57,466 nucleotides of DNA from an uncultured Mycoplasmatota bacterium (GTDB taxonomy: Bacteria > Bacillota_I > Bacilli_A > RF39 > UBA660): assembly GCA_946498375.1 (NCBI GenBank), contig CAMMOI010000003.1, forward strand, positions 1 through 57,466, written 5' to 3'. Both the position numbers and the translations under genes were made by a program. Numbering within the stretch: the stretch's first letter is position 1; each line of letters begins with the position of its first letter. The notes below the pieces were generated by a model, which searched no databases, was not told the DNA's origin, and saw only the letters and a list, made by a program, of their open reading frames with translations. Of the stretch, positions 48,671 through 57,466 are shown piece after piece.

Positions 48671-50833
48671 TTAAGCTGCCTCTAAATCCTTGTTATCTAC
48701 ATGTAATACTCGTTCTTTTATTTCTTGAGTACGACCTCTATTCCAAAAATTAGTTCCAATATAGCCACAAGTACGACGAGCAACATTTAATTTATCATGA
48801 TCTCTATTTCCACAATTTGGACAATACCATTCTAAATTATCATCAATTAAAATTTCTTTATCATAGCCACATACTTGACAATAATCGCTTTTTGTATTTA
48901 ATTCAGCATACATAATATTATCATAAATAAAATTAATAATTTCTAAAACAACATCAATATTATTTGTCAAATTAGGGGTTTCAACATAGGAAATAGCCCC
49001 ACCAGGAGAAAGTTTTTGAAAATCACTTTCTAATTTTAATTTAGTAAAGGCATCTATCTCTTCAAAAACTGGTACATGATAAGAATTAGTTATATAATCA
49101 CGATCAGTTATTCCTTTAATTACACCAAATCTTTCTTTTAAGGCTTTAGCAAACTTATAAGTTGTAGCCTCAATTGGTGTGCCATAAACACTATAATCAA
49201 TATTCTCGGCTTTTTTCCATTCGTTGCATTTATCTACCATTTTTTGCATTACTGCAAGACCAAAAGGTTTACCTTCTTGAGGATCAGTATGACTTTTCCC
49301 TGTCATATATTTAACACACTCATATAATCCTGCATATCCTAGCGAAATTGTTGAATATCCATTATGTAGCAAATCATGAATAGATTCTCCTTTTTTTAAC
49401 CTAGCTAAAGCTCCGTGTTGCCATAATATAGGAGCCACATCACTAGTTACTTTAGATAGACGTTTATGTCTTATTTGCAAAGCTCTATGGCATAATTCTA
49501 AGCGCTCTTCAAAAATTTTCCAGAAATCATCAAGATCTTTATCAGAGGATAAAGCTACATCAACCAAATTTATTGTAACAACTCCTTGATTAAAGCGACC
49601 ATAATATTTTGGCTTACCATGTTCATCTACATAAGGTGTCAAAAATGAACGGCATCCCATACATGGATAACATTGGCCATTTCCATTAGCATCTATTTTA
49701 TTTTCTTTCATTACTTTCTCAGAAATATAATCAGGAACCATTCGCTTAGCTGTACATTGAGCAGCTAATTTTGTTAAATAATAATATTTACTATCTGGAT
49801 GAATATTATCCTCTTCTAAAACATATAAAAGTTTAGGAAATGCTGGAGTAATATAAACCCCTTTTTCGTTTTTCATTCCTTCAATTCGTTGTTTTAAAAC
49901 CTCTTCAATTAGCATTGCAAGCTCTTCTTTATATTCATCTGTTTCTCCTAAATACATACAAACAGATAAAAATGGAGCTTGACCATTAGTAGTTGTCATT
50001 GAATTAATTTGATATTGGAATGTTTGAACTCCATCAGTAATTTCTTTAGCTAAATCTTCCTGAACAAACTGCTCTATTTGTTTATCAGATAGTTTTCTGG
50101 CTTTATATTTTTTTTCATAATATTCTTTTGAGGATCTAATAAATGGTGCAAGGTGTGTTAAAGTAATTGTACATCCTCCATATTGACTAGAATTAACTGC
50201 TGTAATTAATTGAGTTGCAATAGTCATTGCTGTTAAAAAACGGTGAGGTTTTTCAATCATTACATCGTTAATATTAGTGCCATTTTGTAACATATCCTCT
50301 AAATTAATTAGATCACAATTATGTAAAGCGTTTTGAGCAAAATAATCAGCATCATGGAAATGAATTATTCCCTCATCATGAGCCTTAACTATATCCTCAG
50401 GCAACAAAAACCTTCTAGTAATATCAGTAGAAGTAATTCCTGCCAAATAATCTCTTTGAGTTGTAACTACTTTAGCATTTTTATTAGAATTTTCAGTATT
50501 CCAATATTCGGATTCACCATCAATTAGTTCCTTAATTGCTAAATCAGTAGTATTACTTTTTCTTACTAGTTCTCTAGTATAGCGATAAGTAATATATTTT
50601 TTAGCTAAAGCATATTTGCCAATAGACATTAATTTAACTTCGATTATGTCTTGGATATCTTCTACAAGTATCCTTTTTTTGCCTAATTTTTCAATATATT
50701 TTATTATATTTTTTATTTGTGTAGGAGATGCTTGATCAGATTCTTCTACTTCGTTATTAGCTTTATTGATAGCTGTTTCAATTTTTTCGGGACACCAATC
50801 TACCATATGTCCGTCTCTTTTTATAACTTTCAT
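48671..50833 (-). CDS. nrdD: Anaerobic ribonucleoside-triphosphate reductase
   Basis: A 720-residue class III reductase. An ATP-cone is at the N-terminus (IKRDGHMVDWCPEKIETAI). The active-site region contains CYPCMGCRSFL. The C-terminal zinc site is CQVCGYDKE and CPNCGNRD, and the glycyl radical is in CGYIGTNFWNRGR. It works only without oxygen. The promoter has a Crp/Fnr-type palindrome centred about 42 bases before the likely start. Confidence 0.96.
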   Translation of the reverse strand: MKVIKRDGHMVDWCPEKIETAINKANNEVEESDQASPTQIKNIIKYIEKLGKKRILVEDIQDIIEVKLMSIGKYALAKKYITYRYTRELVRKSNTTDLAIKELIDGESEYWNTENSNKNAKVVTTQRDYLAGITSTDITRRFLLPEDIVKAHDEGIIHFHDADYFAQNALHNCDLINLEDMLQNGTNINDVMIEKPHRFLTAMTIATQLITAVNSSQYGGCTITLTHLAPFIRSSKEYYEKKYKARKLSDKQIEQFVQEDLAKEITDGVQTFQYQINSMTTTNGQAPFLSVCMYLGETDEYKEELAMLIEEVLKQRIEGMKNEKGVYITPAFPKLLYVLEEDNIHPDSKYYYLTKLAAQCTAKRMVPDYISEKVMKENKIDANGNGQCYPCMGCRSFLTPYVDEHGKPKYYGRFNQGVVTINLVDVALSSDKDLDDFWKIFEERLELCHRALQIRHKRLSKVTSDVAPILWQHGALARLKKGESIHDLLHNGYSTISLGYAGLYECVKYMTGKSHTDPQEGKPFGLAVMQKMVDKCNEWKKAENIDYSVYGTPIEATTYKFAKALKERFGVIKGITDRDYITNSYHVPVFEEIDAFTKLKLESDFQKLSPGGAISYVETPNLTNNIDVVLEIINFIYDNIMYAELNTKSDYCQVCGYDKEILIDDNLEWYCPNCGNRDHDKLNVARRTCGYIGTNFWNRGRTQEIKERVLHVDNKDLEAA

Positions 50834-50861
50834 ACTCTTACCTCACTTATTTTACAAACTA

Positions 50862-50926
50862 ACTATAGCACAAGTTTTACAATTCTTGTTGTTGCAATTG
50901 CAACATTTATATAAAAATGTTAAAAT
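50862..50926. promoter_or_regulatory. Divergent nrdD / Crp-Fnr promoters with shared 16-bp palindrome
   Basis: The perfect palindrome TGTTGCAATTGCAACA lies at 50890-50905. For the regulator gene it overlaps the -35 (TTGCAA 50898-50903, 17 bases, TAAAAT 50921-50926), fitting repression. For nrdD the -10 is TATAGT with TGC before it (50862-50867, minus strand), so the palindrome centre falls near -42, the class II activator position of Crp/Fnr proteins. Confidence 0.7.
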
Positions 50927-50945
50927 TTATTTTGAGGGATTAAAA

Positions 50946-51581
50946 ATGAATGAATTGCTTTATAATATAACTGGTAGAAATTTAGAAAAACTAATGCTTT
51001 ATTTAGAGGCAAATAGCCTATTCTTCAAGAAAAACACCGCTATTTTATCTAATTTATTAGATGAGAATGTAATATGTTTATTAATAAGTGGAAAAGTTCA
51101 AATTATTAAAAATGATTTTAACGGAAATCAAGTAATAATGGAAATTTTAGAAAAAAATGCAATTTTTGGAACTACTATTTTTGGAATAAATAATAGTGAT
51201 TATGAAATTAAAACTTTAGAAGATTCTAAAATTGTTATAATAGATTTTAATAATATTATTAGCAATACAGCTAATACAGTTTATACAGATCAGTTTTTGA
51301 AAAATTTACTTAAATTCACGGCTCATAAAATTAAGGAAAATAACGAACGCATTGAAATATTAACATGTAAAACGATTAGAAATAAGTTATTAGCATATTT
51401 TAAACAGATGGCTAAAAGTAGTAACTCTCGAGTTATTTACCTGCCTTATAGTTTAACTAGACTAGCCGATTATTTAGCAGTAGATAGATCGGCAATGTCC
51501 AGAGAATTAAAAAACTTAAAAGATGAAGGATTTATTGAAATAAAAGATAAAAAGATTAAATTAAAATATAATGATTATTAA
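50946..51581 (+). CDS. Crp/Fnr-family transcriptional regulator
   Basis: A 211-residue regulator with an N-terminal cyclic-nucleotide-like barrel (about residues 15-115), the long dimer helix and a C-terminal winged helix (SLTRLADYLAVDRSAMSRELKNLKDEGFI). The N-terminal Cys cluster of oxygen-sensing FNR is absent; only isolated Cys residues are seen, so the signal is unknown (heme, nitric oxide, redox or none). I start at ATG 50946 (GAGGG upstream); an upstream in-frame extension is inside the promoter. It is divergent from nrdD and a likely regulator of it. Confidence 0.88.
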   Translation: MNELLYNITGRNLEKLMLYLEANSLFFKKNTAILSNLLDENVICLLISGKVQIIKNDFNGNQVIMEILEKNAIFGTTIFGINNSDYEIKTLEDSKIVIIDFNNIISNTANTVYTDQFLKNLLKFTAHKIKENNERIEILTCKTIRNKLLAYFKQMAKSSNSRVIYLPYSLTRLADYLAVDRSAMSRELKNLKDEGFIEIKDKKIKLKYNDY

Positions 51582-51611
51582 AAGACTTGTAAATTTAAAC
51601 AAGTCTTTTAA
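51578..51611. terminator. Bidirectional terminator between the Crp/Fnr and LysM genes
   Basis: A 13-bp perfect stem (51578-51590 with 51599-51611) has A and T flanks on both sides. It overlaps both stop codons. Confidence 0.75.
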
Positions 51612-52087
51612 TAATAGTTATCAATTGGAATATAAATTATCTGTCCTACTCTAATTAAATTAGCATTTTTAATTTTGTTTATTTGAACTAACTGATTAAC
51701 TGAGGTATGATATCTCATTGCAATTTCTGATAAAGTATCATTTTGTTTAACAGTATAACTAATTAAGTGATTTGTATTATCAACACTAAGTATGCGAATT
51801 TGTTCATTAGGATAAATTAAATTAGGATTAGATATGTTATTCCATTTTACTAAATCACTTACACTAACATTATATTCTAAAGCAATCTTAGATAAAGTAT
51901 CTTTATTTTTAACAATATAAACTATGCTCTTAGTATCACCACTAATTTGATGATTATATTCCTTATAAATCTTTAAAATTTCATTAGGATAAATCAGATT
52001 AGGGTTAGATATATTATTCCATCTTGTCAAATCATTTACACTAACATTATATTCTGAAGCTATTTTAGATAAAGTATCCCCTGATAC
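51608..52087 (-). pseudogene. LysM-repeat protein, 5' part removed by insertion
   Basis: The readable part has three LysM repeats. The first is cut at its start and begins [16 protein letters not shown] at 52087. It is followed by [16 protein letters not shown] and [16 protein letters not shown], each with a [12 protein letters not shown]- or [10 protein letters not shown]-type second half. There is no start codon with a ribosome site. Upstream of 52088 the sequence switches to recombinase-derived DNA in another frame. The intact gene was probably a secreted peptidoglycan-binding protein, with its 5' half now on the far side of the island, outside the window. Confidence 0.75.
52074..52087. 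other. Element-end / attachment-like palindrome at the LysM junction
   Basis: GTATCCCCTGATAC (arms GTATC and GATAC) is followed by a T-rich stretch and then TGTAATATTTTT. It matches 12 of 14 positions of the palindrome at 53417, which lies just past the 3' end of the intact recombinase gene, with the same T-rich flank. It therefore marks the recombinase-side end of the element. Half of it codes for the LysM repeat. Confidence 0.5.
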
Positions 52088-52330
52088 ATTTTTTCTGTAA
52101 TATTTTTGTTAAACCCTTCTTTTATTTTATTTTTATCTAAATATTTTTTAAATATATCTTTTTTGTTATCTAATATAACACTTTCTAATATTTCATAATT
52201 ATTTGTATGGGTTGTACAGACATGATATTTTGAATATGTTTTATTAATCACAAGTTGTATAACTTCTTCCTGTTTTAGTTTGATATCTAATAGTTATTCT
52301 ATGCTTGCAATCACCACAATATAGGTTGCT
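52088..52330 (-). pseudogene. Serine recombinase remnant
   Basis: On the minus strand TYSKYHVCTTHTNNYEILES and VILDNKKDIFKKYLDKNKIK closely match the zinc-ribbon and following region of the intact recombinase at 53437-54987. The upstream part (52255-52325) also matches but with small deletions. The last codons (KNIT) match the recombinase C-terminus, so the coiled-coil region between was deleted. It is a dead second copy. Confidence 0.75.
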
Positions 52331-52364
52331 AAAGAATAAATATAGGAATAATAATAGTTTTAAG

Positions 52365-52789
52365 AAACAAAAAAACATCCAAAATTCTTATTTTCATTAA
52401 AAATTATAGGATGATTTAATTTTTATTAATTATTATTTTTTAATTTTAAAGTTTTTACAAACCTATTTATTAAAGCCGGCTTTGCAAATTGTTCTTCTAG
52501 TACTAATACACTATTTTTATATCTATTATAGGCTTTATCATAATTTCCTTGTTCAATTTGTTCAACACAATAACCTACTATATTATCATAAATATAGTCA
52601 TAAATAATATCTGATTGTTCTTCTCTATTAATCATTTCAACAATTATTGGTGCTACTTCATAGTAGTGTTCTATATCTTCCTTTGTAACAAAATTATCTC
52701 TAAACCATCTTAATACTAATAATTCATAACAATTATCATCAAAATTTTCTTAAAAATATTTCATACAAGCCGAAGTTAAATAACATTTA
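52365..52789. repeat. Direct repeat, copy 1 (3' CFI-domain region plus terminator)
   Basis: About 425 bases are nearly identical to 55502-55926 (constant offset 3137). The repeat covers the last 115 or so codons of the CFI-box-like gene and its terminator. By eye, differences are a handful of substitutions until about 52750, then more. Confidence 0.85.
52369..52413 (-). terminator. Terminator of module 1
   Basis: On the minus strand CATCC pairs with GGATG (inner part imperfectly paired) and seven T residues follow. The same structure is at 55506. Confidence 0.6.
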
Positions 52790-52980
52790 ACATCAGTATG
52801 TTCTGTACTACCATTTGTTGTGTCTATAATATGTGCTGACTTTGAATTACTATCAACTGCAATGTGAATTGATTCATGTGAGCCCTTAGGATCTGATGTG
52901 TAAACATCTATTTTAGTATCATATTTACTACTATTTGGAATAGTCGCTTTTATTATTGGTTTATCTGACACTTTTACCAC
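52426..52980 (-). pseudogene. CFI-box-like protein of module 1, one in-frame nonsense codon
   Basis: A unique N-terminus (MVKVSDKPIIKATIP to about residue 65) is followed by KCYLTSACMKYF, a TAA stop, and then, in the same frame, ENFDDNCYELLVLRWF through to LKLKNNN. Copy 3 has CAA (Gln) at the stop position, so a single C-to-T change explains it. The region after the stop is clean over 105 codons. The conserved part resembles CFI-box C-terminal domains (Cys motif, then LRxFRDN and YYEVAPIIVE). It overlaps the end of its partner gene by 20 bases, so the pair is coupled. Confidence 0.8.
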
Positions 52981-53335
52981 TTTCTTTCTCTAAATCAGAT
53001 ATAATTTTACCAATTTGGAATATAGAATATGATATACCTTCTATATGAAACTTATCATCCAATTCAACTAAACATAATTCTAATTGTGAAATAATAGATT
53101 CTATTTCTTTATATTTATCTGCAATTTTTTTGTAATTTTTTGTTTCAAAACTATTTCTCCAATCCTTTATTTCTGCATATACATAATTTAAATATTCAAT
53201 TATTTGTTGTTTAGTCAATTCAAAATATGGCTTATCATCTAAAACTTTTGCCTCTTCTATAGCTTGTTTTAAATTTGATAAGGCATAATTCAAGTTATTA
53301 GAAAATTCTAAACTAGTTTTTTCGTTATCTTCCAT
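52961..53335 (-). CDS. Module 1 variable partner protein, helical, unknown
   Basis: A 124-residue, strongly helical and acidic protein (SNNLNYALSNLKQAIEEAK, YKKIADKYKEIESIISQ) without signal or membrane segments. It is the first gene of module 1, with the shared leader at 53345. It shows no likeness to the partner proteins of modules 2 and 3. Its stop overlaps the start of the CFI-like gene. Function unknown; a binding partner, toxin or immunity protein for the CFI-like product are all possible. Confidence 0.65.
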   Translation of the reverse strand: MEDNEKTSLEFSNNLNYALSNLKQAIEEAKVLDDKPYFELTKQQIIEYLNYVYAEIKDWRNSFETKNYKKIADKYKEIESIISQLELCLVELDDKFHIEGISYSIFQIGKIISDLEKESGKSVR

Positions 53336-53344
53336 TAGCAGAGT

Positions 53345-53368
53345 TCCTTTCTTGGCTTATATTATAAA
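53345..53368 (-). promoter_or_regulatory. Shared module leader, copy 1 (promoter -10 and ribosome site)
   Basis: These 24 bases are identical to 57441-57464, upstream of the module 3 partner gene. On the minus strand they contain TATAAT and end in AAGAAAGGA, giving a very short leader before the start codon. Confidence 0.7.
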
Positions 53369-53416
53369 ATTTTTTTAATAAATCAATAATTTTACTTATT
53401 ATTCCCTATAAAAATT

Positions 53417-53430
53417 GTATTCCATGATAC
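53417..53430. other. Element-end / attachment-like palindrome after the recombinase gene
   Basis: GTATTCCATGATAC, six bases past the recombinase stop codon, matches the LysM-junction palindrome (52074) at 12 of 14 positions. The recombinase-side flanks also match (T run, then TGTAATATTTTT). It is the boundary between the recombinase unit and module 1. Confidence 0.5.
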
Positions 53431-53436
53431 ATTTTT

Positions 53437-54987
53437 TTATGTAATATTTTTAAATGCAAAAATAATATCTACTAGTTTATCTTGATAAATATTAATCTTT
53501 TCTACTAAATTAATTATTAATTCCCTAGGCAAACTTTTAAAAGATAAGAAATCATTAATATACTTTTCTATTACTTTATTATCTATTTTATTTGATTTCA
53601 TATTTTTATTTTTAAGATTATCAATATTCTTTTTATTATTATCTATTTCAGATTTAATATTTTCACTAACTCTTATATATTGTTCTTCATCAATTATTCC
53701 GTTTAACCTATCCATATAAGTTTTATCTAGACTTTCAGTTAGTTTATTATTTGCTATTTCTATACTTTCAATTTGTTTTTTAATTTTTAATGTATTAGTC
53801 TCAAATTCTAAATTTTTAACTTTCTCTTTTATTTTATTTTTATCTAAATACTTTTTACACACATCTCTTATGTTGTCTAAAATAACACTTTCTAATACTT
53901 CATAATTGTTTGTATGAGTTGTGCAGACATGATATTTTGAGTATGTTCTATAATAATCACAAATAGTATAACTTCTTCCAGTTTTATTTTGATATCTAAT
54001 TGTTATTCTGTGTTTGCAATCTCCACAATATAAAAGCCCATCTAACAAATAAAATCTTTTTTTATCTGGTCTTTTAGCATTTTTAGGAAGTAATGTTTGG
54101 ACATAATTAAATATGTCTTTATCTATGATTGCTTCATGGGTATTTTCAACTATAATGTAATCATTTGGATTATTCTTAATAGTCTTTTTAAGTTTATAAT
54201 TAAGCTTTTTAGTCTTAGCTTGTACTACATCTCCTGTGTAAATTCTATTAGTTAAAATTGCTTTTATAGTAGTATCTGCCCATACTCCATATTTTTGGGA
54301 TATACATTTTGCATTCCATAGATAGTTATAATAAGAGGCTGGTGTTTTTATTTTTCTTTCAGTTAAATATTGAGCAATATAATGATATGTATTACCTTCA
54401 AGTGCTAAATCAAAGATTAATTTGACTACACTTGCTTGTTCTTCATTTATAATTAAATGATTCTTATTTGTTGGATCTTTCATATAGCCAAATGGACATC
54501 TTCCTGATACATATAAACCATCTTTCATTCTAGAATATAAACTACTTTTTACTTTTTTAGAAATATCTTTAGCATACATATCATTCATTATAGCTTTAAA
54601 TGGTGCTATATCATTATTAGTATTATCTATAAATGTATCTATACCATCATTAACAGCAATATATCTAATATCATTATTGGGAAAATACTTTTCTATTAAT
54701 TCACCAGTAGCAATATAATCTCTACCTAATCTAGACATATCTTTGGTAATAATCATATTAATTTTGCCTAATTCAACATCTCTAATCATTTTAATAAACG
54801 CTGGTCTATCAAAATTAGTTCCAGAAAAGCCATCATCTATATATTCTTCTACTACAGTATAATTATTTTCTTTAACATATTGATTAAGCAAACTTCTTTG
54901 ACTAACAATACTTTCAGATTCTAAATTACCATCATCTCTTGATAATCTTATATAAAGCCCTACTTTAAAACTATTATTTTCTAACAT
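53437..54987 (-). CDS. Large serine recombinase (Tn4451 TnpX-like)
   Basis: A 516-residue site-specific recombinase. The N-terminal resolvase domain has the catalytic Ser in YIRLSRDDG, with YIDDGFSGTNFDRPAF and MIITKDMSRLGRDY. A recombinase domain follows (CPFGYMKD, ILTNRIYTGDVVQ), then a zinc ribbon (YCGDCKHRI paired with YHVC), a coiled coil near 375-470 and a short tail. It inserts or excises elements through short att sites. It is intact. Its start overlaps the stop of a 45-residue ORF (TAATG). Confidence 0.92.
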   Translation of the reverse strand: MLENNSFKVGLYIRLSRDDGNLESESIVSQRSLLNQYVKENNYTVVEEYIDDGFSGTNFDRPAFIKMIRDVELGKINMIITKDMSRLGRDYIATGELIEKYFPNNDIRYIAVNDGIDTFIDNTNNDIAPFKAIMNDMYAKDISKKVKSSLYSRMKDGLYVSGRCPFGYMKDPTNKNHLIINEEQASVVKLIFDLALEGNTYHYIAQYLTERKIKTPASYYNYLWNAKCISQKYGVWADTTIKAILTNRIYTGDVVQAKTKKLNYKLKKTIKNNPNDYIIVENTHEAIIDKDIFNYVQTLLPKNAKRPDKKRFYLLDGLLYCGDCKHRITIRYQNKTGRSYTICDYYRTYSKYHVCTTHTNNYEVLESVILDNIRDVCKKYLDKNKIKEKVKNLEFETNTLKIKKQIESIEIANNKLTESLDKTYMDRLNGIIDEEQYIRVSENIKSEIDNNKKNIDNLKNKNMKSNKIDNKVIEKYINDFLSFKSLPRELIINLVEKINIYQDKLVDIIFAFKNIT

Positions 54988-55124
54988 TAATTACTACCTT
55001 TTACCGAGGAATAATAAGTAATATTAAATTTCTTTTGTAATTCTATTTTTAATACTTCTGTTATTATTTCATTTAAAGATTTAGAAGCATCATTAAATTT
55101 TAGATTAATCTTATATTTAACCAT
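54987..55124 (-). CDS. 45-residue ORF coupled to the recombinase
   Basis: Starts at ATG 55124 after a G-rich ribosome site and ends at the TAA that overlaps the recombinase ATG. The product (MVKYKINLKFNDASKSLNE then an IITEVLKIEL helix) is a small helical protein without known motif. Tiny ORFs immediately before large serine recombinases are frequent in Firmicute elements and may act in translation coupling or directionality. Confidence 0.55.
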   Translation of the reverse strand: MVKYKINLKFNDASKSLNEIITEVLKIELQKKFNITYYSSVKGSN

Positions 55125-55218
55125 AGAGTTTAATACCCCCCATAAATTCTATGGTTTTAAAGTTTGGAAAATTACTTGATATGAAATTTGCATACCTAAT
55201 AATATTACTTAATGTCAT
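55117..55218 (-). CDS. 33-residue ORF before the coupled ORF
   Basis: Starts at ATG 55218 with AAGGA just upstream and overlaps the next ORF by eight bases. The product begins MTLSNIIRYANFISS and has no known motif. Size and overlap suggest a translational leader of the recombinase genes; low certainty. Confidence 0.4.
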   Translation of the reverse strand: MTLSNIIRYANFISSNFPNFKTIEFMGGIKLYG

Positions 55219-55500
55219 AGTCCTTCTTAATATTAATAAACATCATCTCATTTTGCTTTGATGACACCTCTCGCTAAATATAAGAGTCTAGTCATTTACT
55301 GTGGAAAGTTTTATCTATCATCCCAAAACGATTCATAATTTACCAAATTATGAAACAGCAGGATATATACACACTTTTCCTTACCAAATAAGAATTTGGA
55401 TATACACCACTCTTATTTCGTTCTTACACAATTCATCCTACTTTGTAGGTTGATATAGGAAATGTAATAAAGATTTTATATTATAATTACAATAACTTAA
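55219..55500. other. Non-coding element end region rich in inverted repeats
   Basis: I see no convincing gene here. Three perfect small inverted repeats stand out: CATAATTT-ACC-AAATTATG (55334-55352), CCAAAT-AAGA-ATTTGG (55384-55399) and CCTAC-TTT-GTAGG (55437-55449). The words AGCAGGAT and ATATACACACTT (55357-55376) recur at 56703-56735, exactly where module 3 is cut. The region is a likely left end or regulatory leader of the recombinase element. Confidence 0.5.
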
Positions 55501-55501
55501 A

Positions 55502-55926
55502 AAACAAAAAAACATCCAAAATTCTTATTTTCATTAAAAATTATAGGATGATTTAATTTTTATTAATTATTATTTTTTAATTTTAAAGTTTTTACAAACC
55601 TATTTATTAAAGCCGGCTTTGCAAATTGTTCTTCTAGTACTAATACACTATTTTTATATCTATTATAGGCTTTATCATAATTTCCTTGTTCAATTTGTTC
55701 AACACAATAACCTACTATATTATCATAAATATAATCATAAATAATATCTGATTGTTCTTCTTTATTAATCATTTCAACAATTATTGGTGCTACTTCATAG
55801 TAGTGTTCTATATCCTCTTTTGAAACAAAATTATCTCTAAACCATCTTAATACTACTAATTCATAACAATTATCGTCAAAATTTTCTTTAAAGTTTTTCA
55901 TACACGCTGATGTTAAATAACATCCC
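55502..55926. repeat. Direct repeat, copy 2 (3' CFI-domain region plus terminator)
   Basis: Partner of 52365-52789. A third, shorter copy (Cys motif to FVTK) is at about 56738-56850. Confidence 0.85.
55506..55550 (-). terminator. Terminator of module 2
   Basis: Same CATCC/GGATG hairpin and T run as at 52369. Confidence 0.6.
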
Positions 55927-56201
55927 CCGCTATTTTGAACTTCTTTTATTGATGGATTAGAAGAACTATTGCTTTCGTTCCTATTATAATCTGGGCCTTC
56001 ACCGTTATTATAACTATCACTACTTTTATAATAAGAATGAGAATGCCCACCATCTCCATTATCTTTATATCTATTTACAGAACCATTTTTTTCATAACTT
56101 GTATACTGTAGATTAGAATCACTATAATCATCATACCTATCGATATCATAGCTAGCATATCCCCAATCTCTATTTTGACCACCTTTTTTATTTTCAGACA
56201 T
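55563..56201 (-). CDS. CFI-box-like protein of module 2 (intact)
   Basis: A 212-residue cytosolic protein. Residues 1-90 are low-complexity, rich in Asn, Ser, Gly, Tyr and Asp (DIDRYDDYSDSNLQY, GDGGHSHSYYKSSD). Then GGCYLTSACMKNFKENFDD opens the conserved C-terminal domain, with LVVLRWFRDNFV, HYYEVAPIIVEMI and a helical end with EEQFAKPAL. The Cys motif and the YYEVAP-type segment recall the CFI-box domain, whose function is not known to me. I start at ATG 56201, after AAAGGAAAGAG; it is 19 bases from its partner gene. Confidence 0.75.
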   Translation of the reverse strand: MSENKKGGQNRDWGYASYDIDRYDDYSDSNLQYTSYEKNGSVNRYKDNGDGGHSHSYYKSSDSYNNGEGPDYNRNESNSSSNPSIKEVQNSGGCYLTSACMKNFKENFDDNCYELVVLRWFRDNFVSKEDIEHYYEVAPIIVEMINKEEQSDIIYDYIYDNIVGYCVEQIEQGNYDKAYNRYKNSVLVLEEQFAKPALINRFVKTLKLKNNN

Positions 56202-56220
56202 ATATTCTCTTTCCTTTTCT

Positions 56221-56496
56221 CTATCTATTTTTATTAGCATTATATTCGACATCGCCGTCTTCATATATAATAAAATTTCCAATTCCTAGTTTTTCAAACG
56301 TTAATACTAATTGACTAACAATATATTCTTTATTTTCATTAGTTTTCGTGGGTAGCTGACGATATTTTTTTAATTTAGCATTAAATTCATCAAATATCTC
56401 TTTATTAGTATTATTGTAATCAAAATAGGATTCTAATGCTAATGCACCTTTAAAAATAAATTTATCAAAATTTTCTATATTAATTTTAAAACTCAT
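56221..56496 (-). CDS. Module 2 variable partner protein, unknown
   Basis: A 91-residue soluble protein (KINIENFDKFIFKGALAL, FEKLGIGNFIIYEDGD). No motif is recognised and there is no likeness to the partners in modules 1 and 3. The start overlaps the end of a 28-residue ORF (ATGA), and it is followed by the intact CFI-like gene. Confidence 0.6.
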   Translation of the reverse strand: MSFKINIENFDKFIFKGALALESYFDYNNTNKEIFDEFNAKLKKYRQLPTKTNENKEYIVSQLVLTFEKLGIGNFIIYEDGDVEYNANKNR

Positions 56497-56579
56497 AGTT
56501 CAATGTTTATTCCTTTCACAATTATTGTATTTTTATCTAACAAATCAAGTACCCTTCTTATTATTACACCTCCAAACAT
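56493..56579 (-). CDS. 28-residue ORF coupled to the module 2 partner
   Basis: Starts at ATG 56579, contains a GGAGG that may itself serve a later start, and ends with TGA overlapping the next ATG. The product reads MFGGVIIRRVLDLLDKN followed by TIIVKGINIEL. It may be a leader peptide or the end of a gene cut by the upstream junction. Confidence 0.4.
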   Translation of the reverse strand: MFGGVIIRRVLDLLDKNTIIVKGINIEL

Positions 56580-56583
56580 TTAT

Positions 56584-56630
56584 TCAGCATTTACTATTAA
56601 ATGATTTTTATTTGTTATTTTGATTCATTA
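56584..56630 (-). pseudogene. Short trace of a serine recombinase gene
   Basis: About 40 bases match the recombinase region around 54440-54475 (codons for TNKNHLIINEEQ) at roughly four of five positions, but with frame-breaking changes. The match is short, so it is tentative. Confidence 0.3.
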
Positions 56631-56732
56631 TTCTTCTGTTTTTTAAAATTTTAATTAATCCCATATTCATGCCTCCATAGAAAAAATTATTAAATATTAA
56701 ATAGCAGGATAAGAAGATGGTACATATACACA

Positions 56733-57065
56733 CTTCTTTGTAACAAAATTATCTCTGAACCATCTTAATACTACTAATTCATAACAATTATCATCAAAAT
56801 TTTCTTGAAAATATTTCATACAAGCCGAAGTTAAATAATAATTACCAGTTTTAGTGATTTTTTGACTTTTATCTTCATTATGAGAGTTGATACAGTAAAT
56901 GTTTGCTTTTCAGAATTATAATTCACATGAGTACCAGCATGTGGTTCTCTTGGATCTCTATTATATAGATGCTGTATTTTTTGTAAGCTTTAAATGTTCT
57001 CCTCTACCATTTACAAATGAATTGGTAACATCATTTTTGCCAACAATTTTATCTTTATCGTTTAT
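56733..57065 (-). pseudogene. CFI-box-like protein of module 3, frameshifted and truncated
   Basis: Minus-strand frames read INDKDKIVGKNDVTN, then after a shift REPHAGTHVNYNSEKQTFTV, then after another shift KITKTGNYYLTSACMKYFQE and on to LVVLRWFRDNFVTK, where the homology stops at the ATATACACACTT word. At least two frameshifts and loss of the last 80 codons make it dead. The likely start is ATA 57065, five to six bases after GGGGAG and overlapping its partner gene. Confidence 0.75.
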
Positions 57066-57435
57066 TTTTTCTCCCCTTTCTAATTATTTTACTTTCATCA
57101 TATTCTTGATTAACTGGACAACTGCCATAAAATATAACTGTGCTTAACCATATATCTACCTCTTCAAAATAATCTCCACTCCATGCATCATTTGGAATTT
57201 CATCCATTAATTTTTGAATATTTATTACTTCATTGTCAGTCATATTAAGTAAATTATTGTTATCAACATAATATTTAACCCACAACATTGTAATTTCTAA
57301 CATTTCTTCAAACTTACTTTTATATTCTTTATATGGCTCATATTTTGAAGCTGCTAGCAAATAAAATATCAATTTAGCTAAAGCAGTTTCAATTTCATAA
57401 CGTGTTAAAATTTTTAGAGTGTTTTCCTCTTTCAT
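57055..57435 (-). CDS. Module 3 variable partner protein, helical, unknown
   Basis: A 126-residue protein, mainly helical (RYEIETALAKLIFYLLAASK, YKSKFEEMLEITMLW) with a basic tail. It shows no likeness to the partners of modules 1 and 2, yet it has the same 24-base leader as module 1 and overlaps a CFI-like gene downstream. It appears intact although its partner is broken. Confidence 0.65.
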   Translation of the reverse strand: MKEENTLKILTRYEIETALAKLIFYLLAASKYEPYKEYKSKFEEMLEITMLWVKYYVDNNNLLNMTDNEVINIQKLMDEIPNDAWSGDYFEEVDIWLSTVIFYGSCPVNQEYDESKIIRKGRKNKR

Positions 57436-57440
57436 AGTTC

Positions 57441-57464
57441 TCCTTTCTTGGCTTATATTATAAA
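57441..57464 (-). promoter_or_regulatory. Shared module leader, copy 2
   Basis: Identical over 24 bases to 53345-53368, with TATAAT and AAGAAAGGA on the minus strand. Confidence 0.7.
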
Positions 57465-57466
57465 TT

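Follow-up and report, generated by a model that had tools for sequence, protein, structure and literature searches.

The window analysed here is the whole 57,466-nucleotide stretch of contig CAMMOI010000003.1 from an uncultured Mycoplasmatota bacterium (GCA_946498375.1), and forms the entire contig 3 of a 969-kb, 37-contig genome. It very probably holds three tandem, mostly decayed copies of a small serine-recombinase element that targets codons of LysM genes and carries a two-gene cassette, swapped between constant borders. A previous sequence-only reading of this DNA had pointed to an identical 24-base leader in front of two unrelated partner genes and had suggested cassettes with constant borders and an exchangeable middle, replaced by homologous recombination or a cassette system.

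In the scheme that we propose, a large serine recombinase (the integrase) would move a small integrative element, whose promoter and ribosome site, immediately inward of the left end, would be the leader. The element would recognise the codons for the GDT motif in LysM repeats, recombine at a GG next to GA(T/C) and split a cell-wall gene. Its order would be left end, promoter, cargo operon, an open reading frame (ORF) of 45–60 codons, integrase gene and a right end overlapping the last codons of the integrase. Next to a single LysM gene, elements C, B and A would have collected one behind the other, with most of the integrase gene lost and the CFI gene broken in both A and C. The cargo in the window would be a small partner protein followed by a CFI-box protein with a variable N terminus and a constant C-terminal domain and, since every copy has a similar leader and a similar CFI-box domain, homologous recombination between these two could swap the partner and the N terminus as a block. 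The integrase presumably still works. The element ends, the target, the restoration of LysM, the tandem order, the diversity of cargo, the mosaic identity and the covariation of partner and N terminus can each be read from the sequence comparisons reported below.

The 24-base leader and the units behind it

The sequence TCCTTTCTTGGCTTATATTATAAA occurs identically at 53345-53368 and 57441-57464, as the sequence-only reading had stated. On the coding (minus) strand it reads TTTATAATATAAGCCAAGAAAGGA and includes a TATAAT -10 box and the ribosome site AAGAAAGGA, lying a few bases ahead of the ATG of a 124-amino acid gene (52961-53335) and of a 126-amino acid gene (57055-57435), so the leader supplies both signals to both genes as claimed. 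The two encoded proteins are indeed unlike each other (BLASTP E = 21; profile-profile probability 13%). In 60 dinucleotide shuffles of the window the longest exact repeat measured 16–22 bases and never reached 24.

A consensus -10 box and ribosome site are common motifs in such genomes, and the leader could be an ordinary shared promoter present twice by coincidence among AT-rich promoters, the outcome that the sequence-only reading had itself named as fatal to its proposal. We regard the chance of this as negligible. The 19-base core of the leader, allowing up to 2 mismatches, is found at just these two sites in the 969 kb of its own genome, its length exceeds that of any repeat in the shuffles, and the similarity runs on into the left end of the element. 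In the 245 genomes that served for the leader, left-end and integrase searches, the 24-mer has only five further sites at up to 3 mismatches, one of them the left end of a related element. With the core confined to two sites in its own genome and the 24-mer to five further sites in the 245 genomes, the objection falls away, and a general promoter was ruled out by the whole-genome search.

Its position makes the leader the innermost stretch of a serine-integrase element's left end, a placement overlooked in the sequence-only reading. Beyond copy 1, which serves cassette A, about 70 more bases of the same conserved element end follow, including the left end of element A (AATACAATTTTTATAGGGAATAATAAGTA, 53393-53421, 3 mismatches from the family left end). 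The leader lies about 50–70 bases inside the left end in element A, in a complete element on contig C18 of the same genome and in their relatives, where the promoter consists of a TTGATT-type -35 box, TATAAT and AAGAAAGGAG. Element A of the window matches the C18 element at 82% identity over 93 bp of this region (E 2.5e-20). Copy 2 stands at the extreme end of the contig, which stops two bases beyond it, and base 57465 already differs. Because the leader adjoins the left end in A, C18 and relatives, the best reading of the two window copies is that each marks the promoter end of an element of its own, the left end belonging to copy 2 presumably falling off the contig. An Rfam scan of 50500-57466 gave no match to a structured RNA at the leader.

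Three units, each a partner gene followed by a CFI-box protein gene, lie on the minus strand, as do all features of the elements described below. In unit A (53335-52426) the 124-amino acid partner (52961-53335) is predicted to form a four-helix bundle, with a mean predicted local distance difference test (pLDDT) score of 92, and the CFI gene (52426-52980), with its variable N terminus and constant C-terminal domain, is interrupted by an in-frame TAA at 52750-52752. Unit B (56496-55563), the sole intact one in the window, encodes a partner of 91 amino acids (56221-56496) and a CFI-box protein of 212 amino acids (55563-56201). Unit C (57435-56736) is truncated and frameshifted, and retains the 126-amino acid partner gene (57055-57435) and the truncated start of the constant CFI-box domain (56736-56847), which is 94.6% identical to that of A. 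Partner C belongs to the same family as the partner in the C18 element; it is 26% identical to the partner at locus L186, itself near-identical to that of C18, and has a weak match to DUF6323 under the cut-off. A constant 3' block that includes a terminator is common to units A and B, at 95% identity over 437 bp. A serine integrase gene lies between B and A, and integrase scraps lie downstream of A and of C. The former is a remnant of about 208 bp (52117-52324) that is 79–90% identical to the integrases of other elements, the remainder being deleted, and the latter is a probable scrap of the element C gene (56580-56616; 84% over 37 bp, E 3e-5). A decayed leader ahead of partner B was considered and is not claimed, as its 67% identity to the family leader is background.

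Target site and probable tandem insertion

The integrase gene of element B (53437-54987) encodes a large serine recombinase of 516 amino acids with the Pfam domains Resolvase, Recombinase and Zn_ribbon_recom (E 2e-21, 9e-24 and 6e-10) and a match to the PHROG_95 integrase family (E 1.4e-104). From the integrase search, 22 close relatives were examined, the window's own included, at 73–100% identity, and a further 23 at 53–58%. An element end, left or right, lies inside a LysM gene for 21 of the 22 close integrases versus none of the 23 more distant ones. The insertion point is GG|NGA within the codons of the LysM motif GDT, and joining the flanks yields an unbroken in-frame LysM repeat around GDT in all nine elements for which both ends are available (relatives and C18). 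The elements are 3.4–7.0 kb long, and their left end puts a stop into the upstream LysM frame within about nine codons. The C18 element is complete and has the order LysM 5' half, left end, partner, CFI, integrase, right end, LysM 3' half. An element in another genus (genome G052) sits in a different LysM gene, and the two match from GGGGATAC at the left to the attachment (att) site at the right. The left-end 29-mer GATACAATTTTTATGGGGAATAATGAGTA has 18 sites at up to 3 mismatches in 16 of the 245 genomes, all within one family of uncultured gut Bacilli, that of the present genome; the reversed pattern gave none.

Within the window, the right att site (attR, 52074-52107, by sequence match) joins the right element end AAAAATATTACAGAAAAAATGTATCAGG to the LysM codons GGGGATAC, and right of the insertion the host sequence is the 3' half of a LysM-repeat gene (51608-52073, minus strand; Pfam LysM E 1.3e-34). 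The attR pattern has two matches in the genome, one in the window and one in the C18 element, and the reversed control has none. The window contains attR only, the left att site (attL) not being on the contig. The bases common to every attL and attR are GG, followed by GATAG, GATAA, GACAC or GATTC in attR and by AATAC in one attL. Because the bases after it vary between att sites, GG is the likely crossover core.

At 53393-53448 the right end of the element B integrase (ATTACATAAAAAAATGTATCA) runs directly into a left end (GAATACAATTTTTATAGGGAATAATAAG), which would be the junction expected when one element inserts beside another. At this junction (53422-53448) TG replaces the central GG of other att sites, and GG is also absent after the integrases in L044, L049 and L113. 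Arrays with intact junctions should be resolvable by the integrase, so that survivors would carry dead ones. In our reading the copies in the window came together through tandem insertion into a single LysM att site, and replacement in place need not have occurred. The 95% identity of the constant 3' block in A and B is also what a recent duplication would leave, and the three cassettes might derive from one by duplication within the window and divergence of the middle, with neither a mobile element nor exchange. This we hold to be highly improbable: no relationship between the partners could be detected, relatives of each occur in other genomes, divergence in place cannot keep the borders 95–100% identical while erasing the middle, and integrase remnants and att junctions lie between the units.

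At L103, L109, L110, L113, L044 and L049 a second cargo follows the integrase, ahead of the right att site, as would be expected from stacked elements with a lost downstream integrase. Directly ahead of the integrase gene in the window stands a 45-amino acid ORF (54987-55124), and similar small ORFs precede most sister integrases. This conserved ORF of 45–60 amino acids (MVKYKVNLKFKENGKSLNEIITEVLKIEL..), seen also at L098, L103, L104, L105 and L108, matched neither Pfam nor PHROG and is a candidate excision or control factor. Relatives of the integrase in viral contigs are at most 54% identical and those in phage and plasmid records below 60%; no CFI loci or relatives were found in viral contigs, and a viral origin was rejected on these grounds.

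An integrase of a second type, 36–38% identical to the first, is followed by the same CFI cassette at L194 (3704-6404), L195, L196, L198, L200 and L245 (3001-6418). It sits in the catalytic part of amidase-LysM genes, at codons around NSxGGxGAEVIY, and at L245 the 5' part of the amidase lies upstream of the element. The two element families may thus target distinct motifs within a single class of genes. At L010 (C18, near 3137, reversed strand) the amidase-LysM gene with the complete element is without its 5' part just before GGDGAEVIY, as if it had earlier been struck by the second element type.

Cassettes with an exchangeable middle

Scanning the GTDB genomes brought up 133 CFI loci like those of the window, of which 80 were kept, nearly all titled uncultured Bacilli, Tenericutes, Erysipelotrichaceae or similar, and the partner gene was recovered at 63. 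Between loci with unrelated partners (L186/L194, L186/L232 and L195/L194) the DNA identity is 82–88% in the leader and 86–92% in the CFI-box domain, and 64–68% in the partner and N-terminal codons, which is the background of the gap-tolerant alignment. Cassettes of the kind that the sequence-only reading had proposed, with fixed borders around a middle that can be exchanged, are by this comparison real and exist in many genomes. The leader consensus scores above all 1,120 shuffles in 12 of 56 non-redundant loci, with at least five unrelated partner types. The distances of partner and CFI N terminus correlate with a Mantel rho of 0.57 (0 of 300 permutations), far above the 0.20 reached by partner and C terminus. 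Relations among partners were judged by distances, single-linkage clustering having merged nearly everything; a shared origin of the partner families was considered and rejected (profile comparisons at 13% and 5% probability), and the partner types have relatives in other genomes.

Mosaics point to the route of exchange. Between L010 (the C18 element) and L186 the middle is 98–99.7% identical but both the C-terminal domain and the integrase 93%; the partner DNA of the C18 element is 99.7% identical, and its integrase DNA 93% identical, to that of an element from another genus. In one genome, two loci (L183 and L247) share a C-terminal domain at 96% and have unrelated middles. From these mosaics we infer homologous recombination between the constant borders. 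The earlier proposal of replacement by homologous recombination or a cassette system therefore stands in part: the mosaics fit it, but the copies in the window appear to have been joined by tandem insertion.

The element itself is a general carrier, the CFI pair being one cargo among many, because unrelated operons lie behind other left ends; such operons also lie between integrase and right end. These include an OLD-like ATPase with a DpnII-type restriction-modification set (L107), AIPR/AbiU (L108), RhuM (L103, L104 and L105), HNH (L044), Fic with HNH (L114) and AAA_14/DUF4143 (L110), and LGT, MMPL and ASCH proteins are further cargo among the elements. Many of these cargoes resemble phage defence.

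It could be argued that the cassette itself is the moving unit, carried by homologous recombination into several types of element, and that its link to the LysM att site is secondary. The same leader and CFI cassette stand behind the different integrase (36–38% identical) in L194 and L195, both among the leader-consensus loci, and element ends are missing at most of the 80 CFI loci. Against this, the leader is contiguous with the left end in the window and at about ten other loci, and the left end elsewhere fronts unrelated, non-CFI cargo. We consider a primary role for the cassette unlikely, without dismissing it.

Several points weigh against a LysM-targeting element stacked in tandem with an exchanged cargo. 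The loci without element ends imply that the cassette is not bound to the element. All the data come from metagenome-assembled genomes; unit C is visible from one side only, and near-identical blocks of about 230 bases may have misjoined A and B in assembly. The left LysM half for the window is off the contig, genomes of the same genus have no LysM gene at this place, and no excised circle, empty site at the same locus or movement was seen. With altered att cores at its internal junctions, the array may be immobile. The Mantel values for the covariation of partner and N terminus are uncorrected for shared ancestry. Structure searches yielded no function. The best matches of partner A are unrelated bundles with Foldseek E values of 0.2 and worse, and its Z scores, up to 13, are not above background for bundles; the predicted CFI model is mediocre (pLDDT 73) and reaches a Z of 5 at best. 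No relative with a solved structure was found.

Beside the LysM remnant lies a gene for a Crp/Fnr-like regulator (50946-51581), which is kept in the genus at 47–52% identity and has a downstream neighbour that varies among genomes of the same genus. An empty insertion site beside this regulator was sought and rejected, as other genes occupy the place in those genomes. Elsewhere in the genome, broken CFI-box remnants occur at C6:24943-25318 and C9:32614-32856 (L011 and L012), with no integrase or LysM gene nearby.

Function of the pair and comparison with known systems

The constant domain aligns over nearly the whole NCBIfam model CFI_box_CTERM (NF041770), with 54 of 55 aligned proteins at E < 1e-3 and a best value of 1e-8; CFI-box protein B, at 28.4 bits (E 1e-6), falls under the curated cut-off of 40 bits. 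None of the databases searched gave the pair a function, it has no likeness to known toxin, antitoxin or PADLOC defence families, and no paper in the literature searched uses the CFI-box name. As in polymorphic effector-immunity pairs, the cassette is a two-gene operon in which the partner covaries with the effector part. Extra partner genes or fragments stand beside the pair at 10 of 83 loci, including the C/B array of the window, and such orphans are also known in effector-immunity and toxin-antitoxin systems.

Because the upstream gene is small, the two genes overlap or lie close, they covary, spare partners occur and the mobile context lies by defence genes, we tentatively suggest that the pair may be an effector with a cognate antidote or regulator, somewhat short of an even chance. 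A fuller version, held slightly more loosely still, is that it could represent an undescribed polymorphic two-gene conflict system of gut Bacilli. In such a system the CFI-box protein would be an effector whose N-terminal part serves recognition and can be swapped, its cognate antidote would be helical, exchange of cassettes bordered by the constant promoter and the constant C-terminal domain would diversify the pair, and LysM-targeting serine-integrase elements would spread it. The repeated location in amidase/LysM genes, together with the lack of likeness to the toxin, antitoxin and defence families, could instead indicate a regulator of stress or of the cell wall, for which the association with cell-wall genes would have a functional meaning. 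Target choice by the integrase accounts for this location, since unrelated cargo lies in the same sites, and an antidote is the better match for pairs that covary and come with spare partner genes. A regulator is in our view doubtful and the less probable alternative.

The elements resemble the large serine recombinase integrative elements surveyed by Durrant et al. 2022 (PMC10083194) in their Resolvase-Recombinase-zinc-ribbon integrase, att half-sites at both ends, split target gene and variable cargo; the integrase domains are present in the window, and attL and attR with a shared core and target restoration were found in relatives and C18. They differ in targeting codons of a repeated motif (LysM GDT), which offers many targets per integrase, and in being small, at 3.4–7 kb and mostly with one cargo operon. 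LysM is unmentioned in the main text of that survey (PMC10083194). The adjacent recombinase is of the serine type, unlike the tyrosine IntI of integron gene cassettes. Staphylococcal cassette chromosomes stack. The staphylococcal and enterococcal cassette chromosomes (SCC/ECC; PMC6222049) likewise have a serine recombinase, variable cargo between constant ends and one att site; here ccr genes are absent (71–112 bits with the NCBIfam Ccr models against cut-offs of 700–900), and insertion is into LysM genes, not the 3' end of rlmH. In Vibrio cholerae type VI clusters, effector-immunity modules are replaced by recombination between conserved flanks and displaced partners persist as orphan arrays (PMC5361080). 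The cassettes in the window are similar in the replacement of pairs between conserved flanks and in their spare partner genes. The polarity is reversed, the partner and N terminus being variable and the C terminus constant, and the cassettes are not known to have a secretion system or toxin activity.

Elements with a serine integrase, stacking in tandem and effector pairs that can be exchanged are each of a kind already known. LysM-codon targeting, the compact design and a CFI cassette between constant promoter and C terminus were not met in the literature searched, which most subscription papers lay outside, and the mobile element is apparently undescribed. Its anatomy would bring together gene exchange at two levels, through integrase elements stacked in cell-wall genes and through cassettes with swapped middles between constant borders. 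With a target made of a protein-motif codon string that many genes contain, a compact element would have numerous places to land and need not insert at random. For a domain family without an assigned function, the covarying CFI-box pairs provide a defined and testable pair of genes. Because it carries restriction-modification, AIPR/AbiU, RhuM and Fic genes in bacteria whose genomes measure 1 Mb, the family may plausibly serve there as a vehicle for phage defence.

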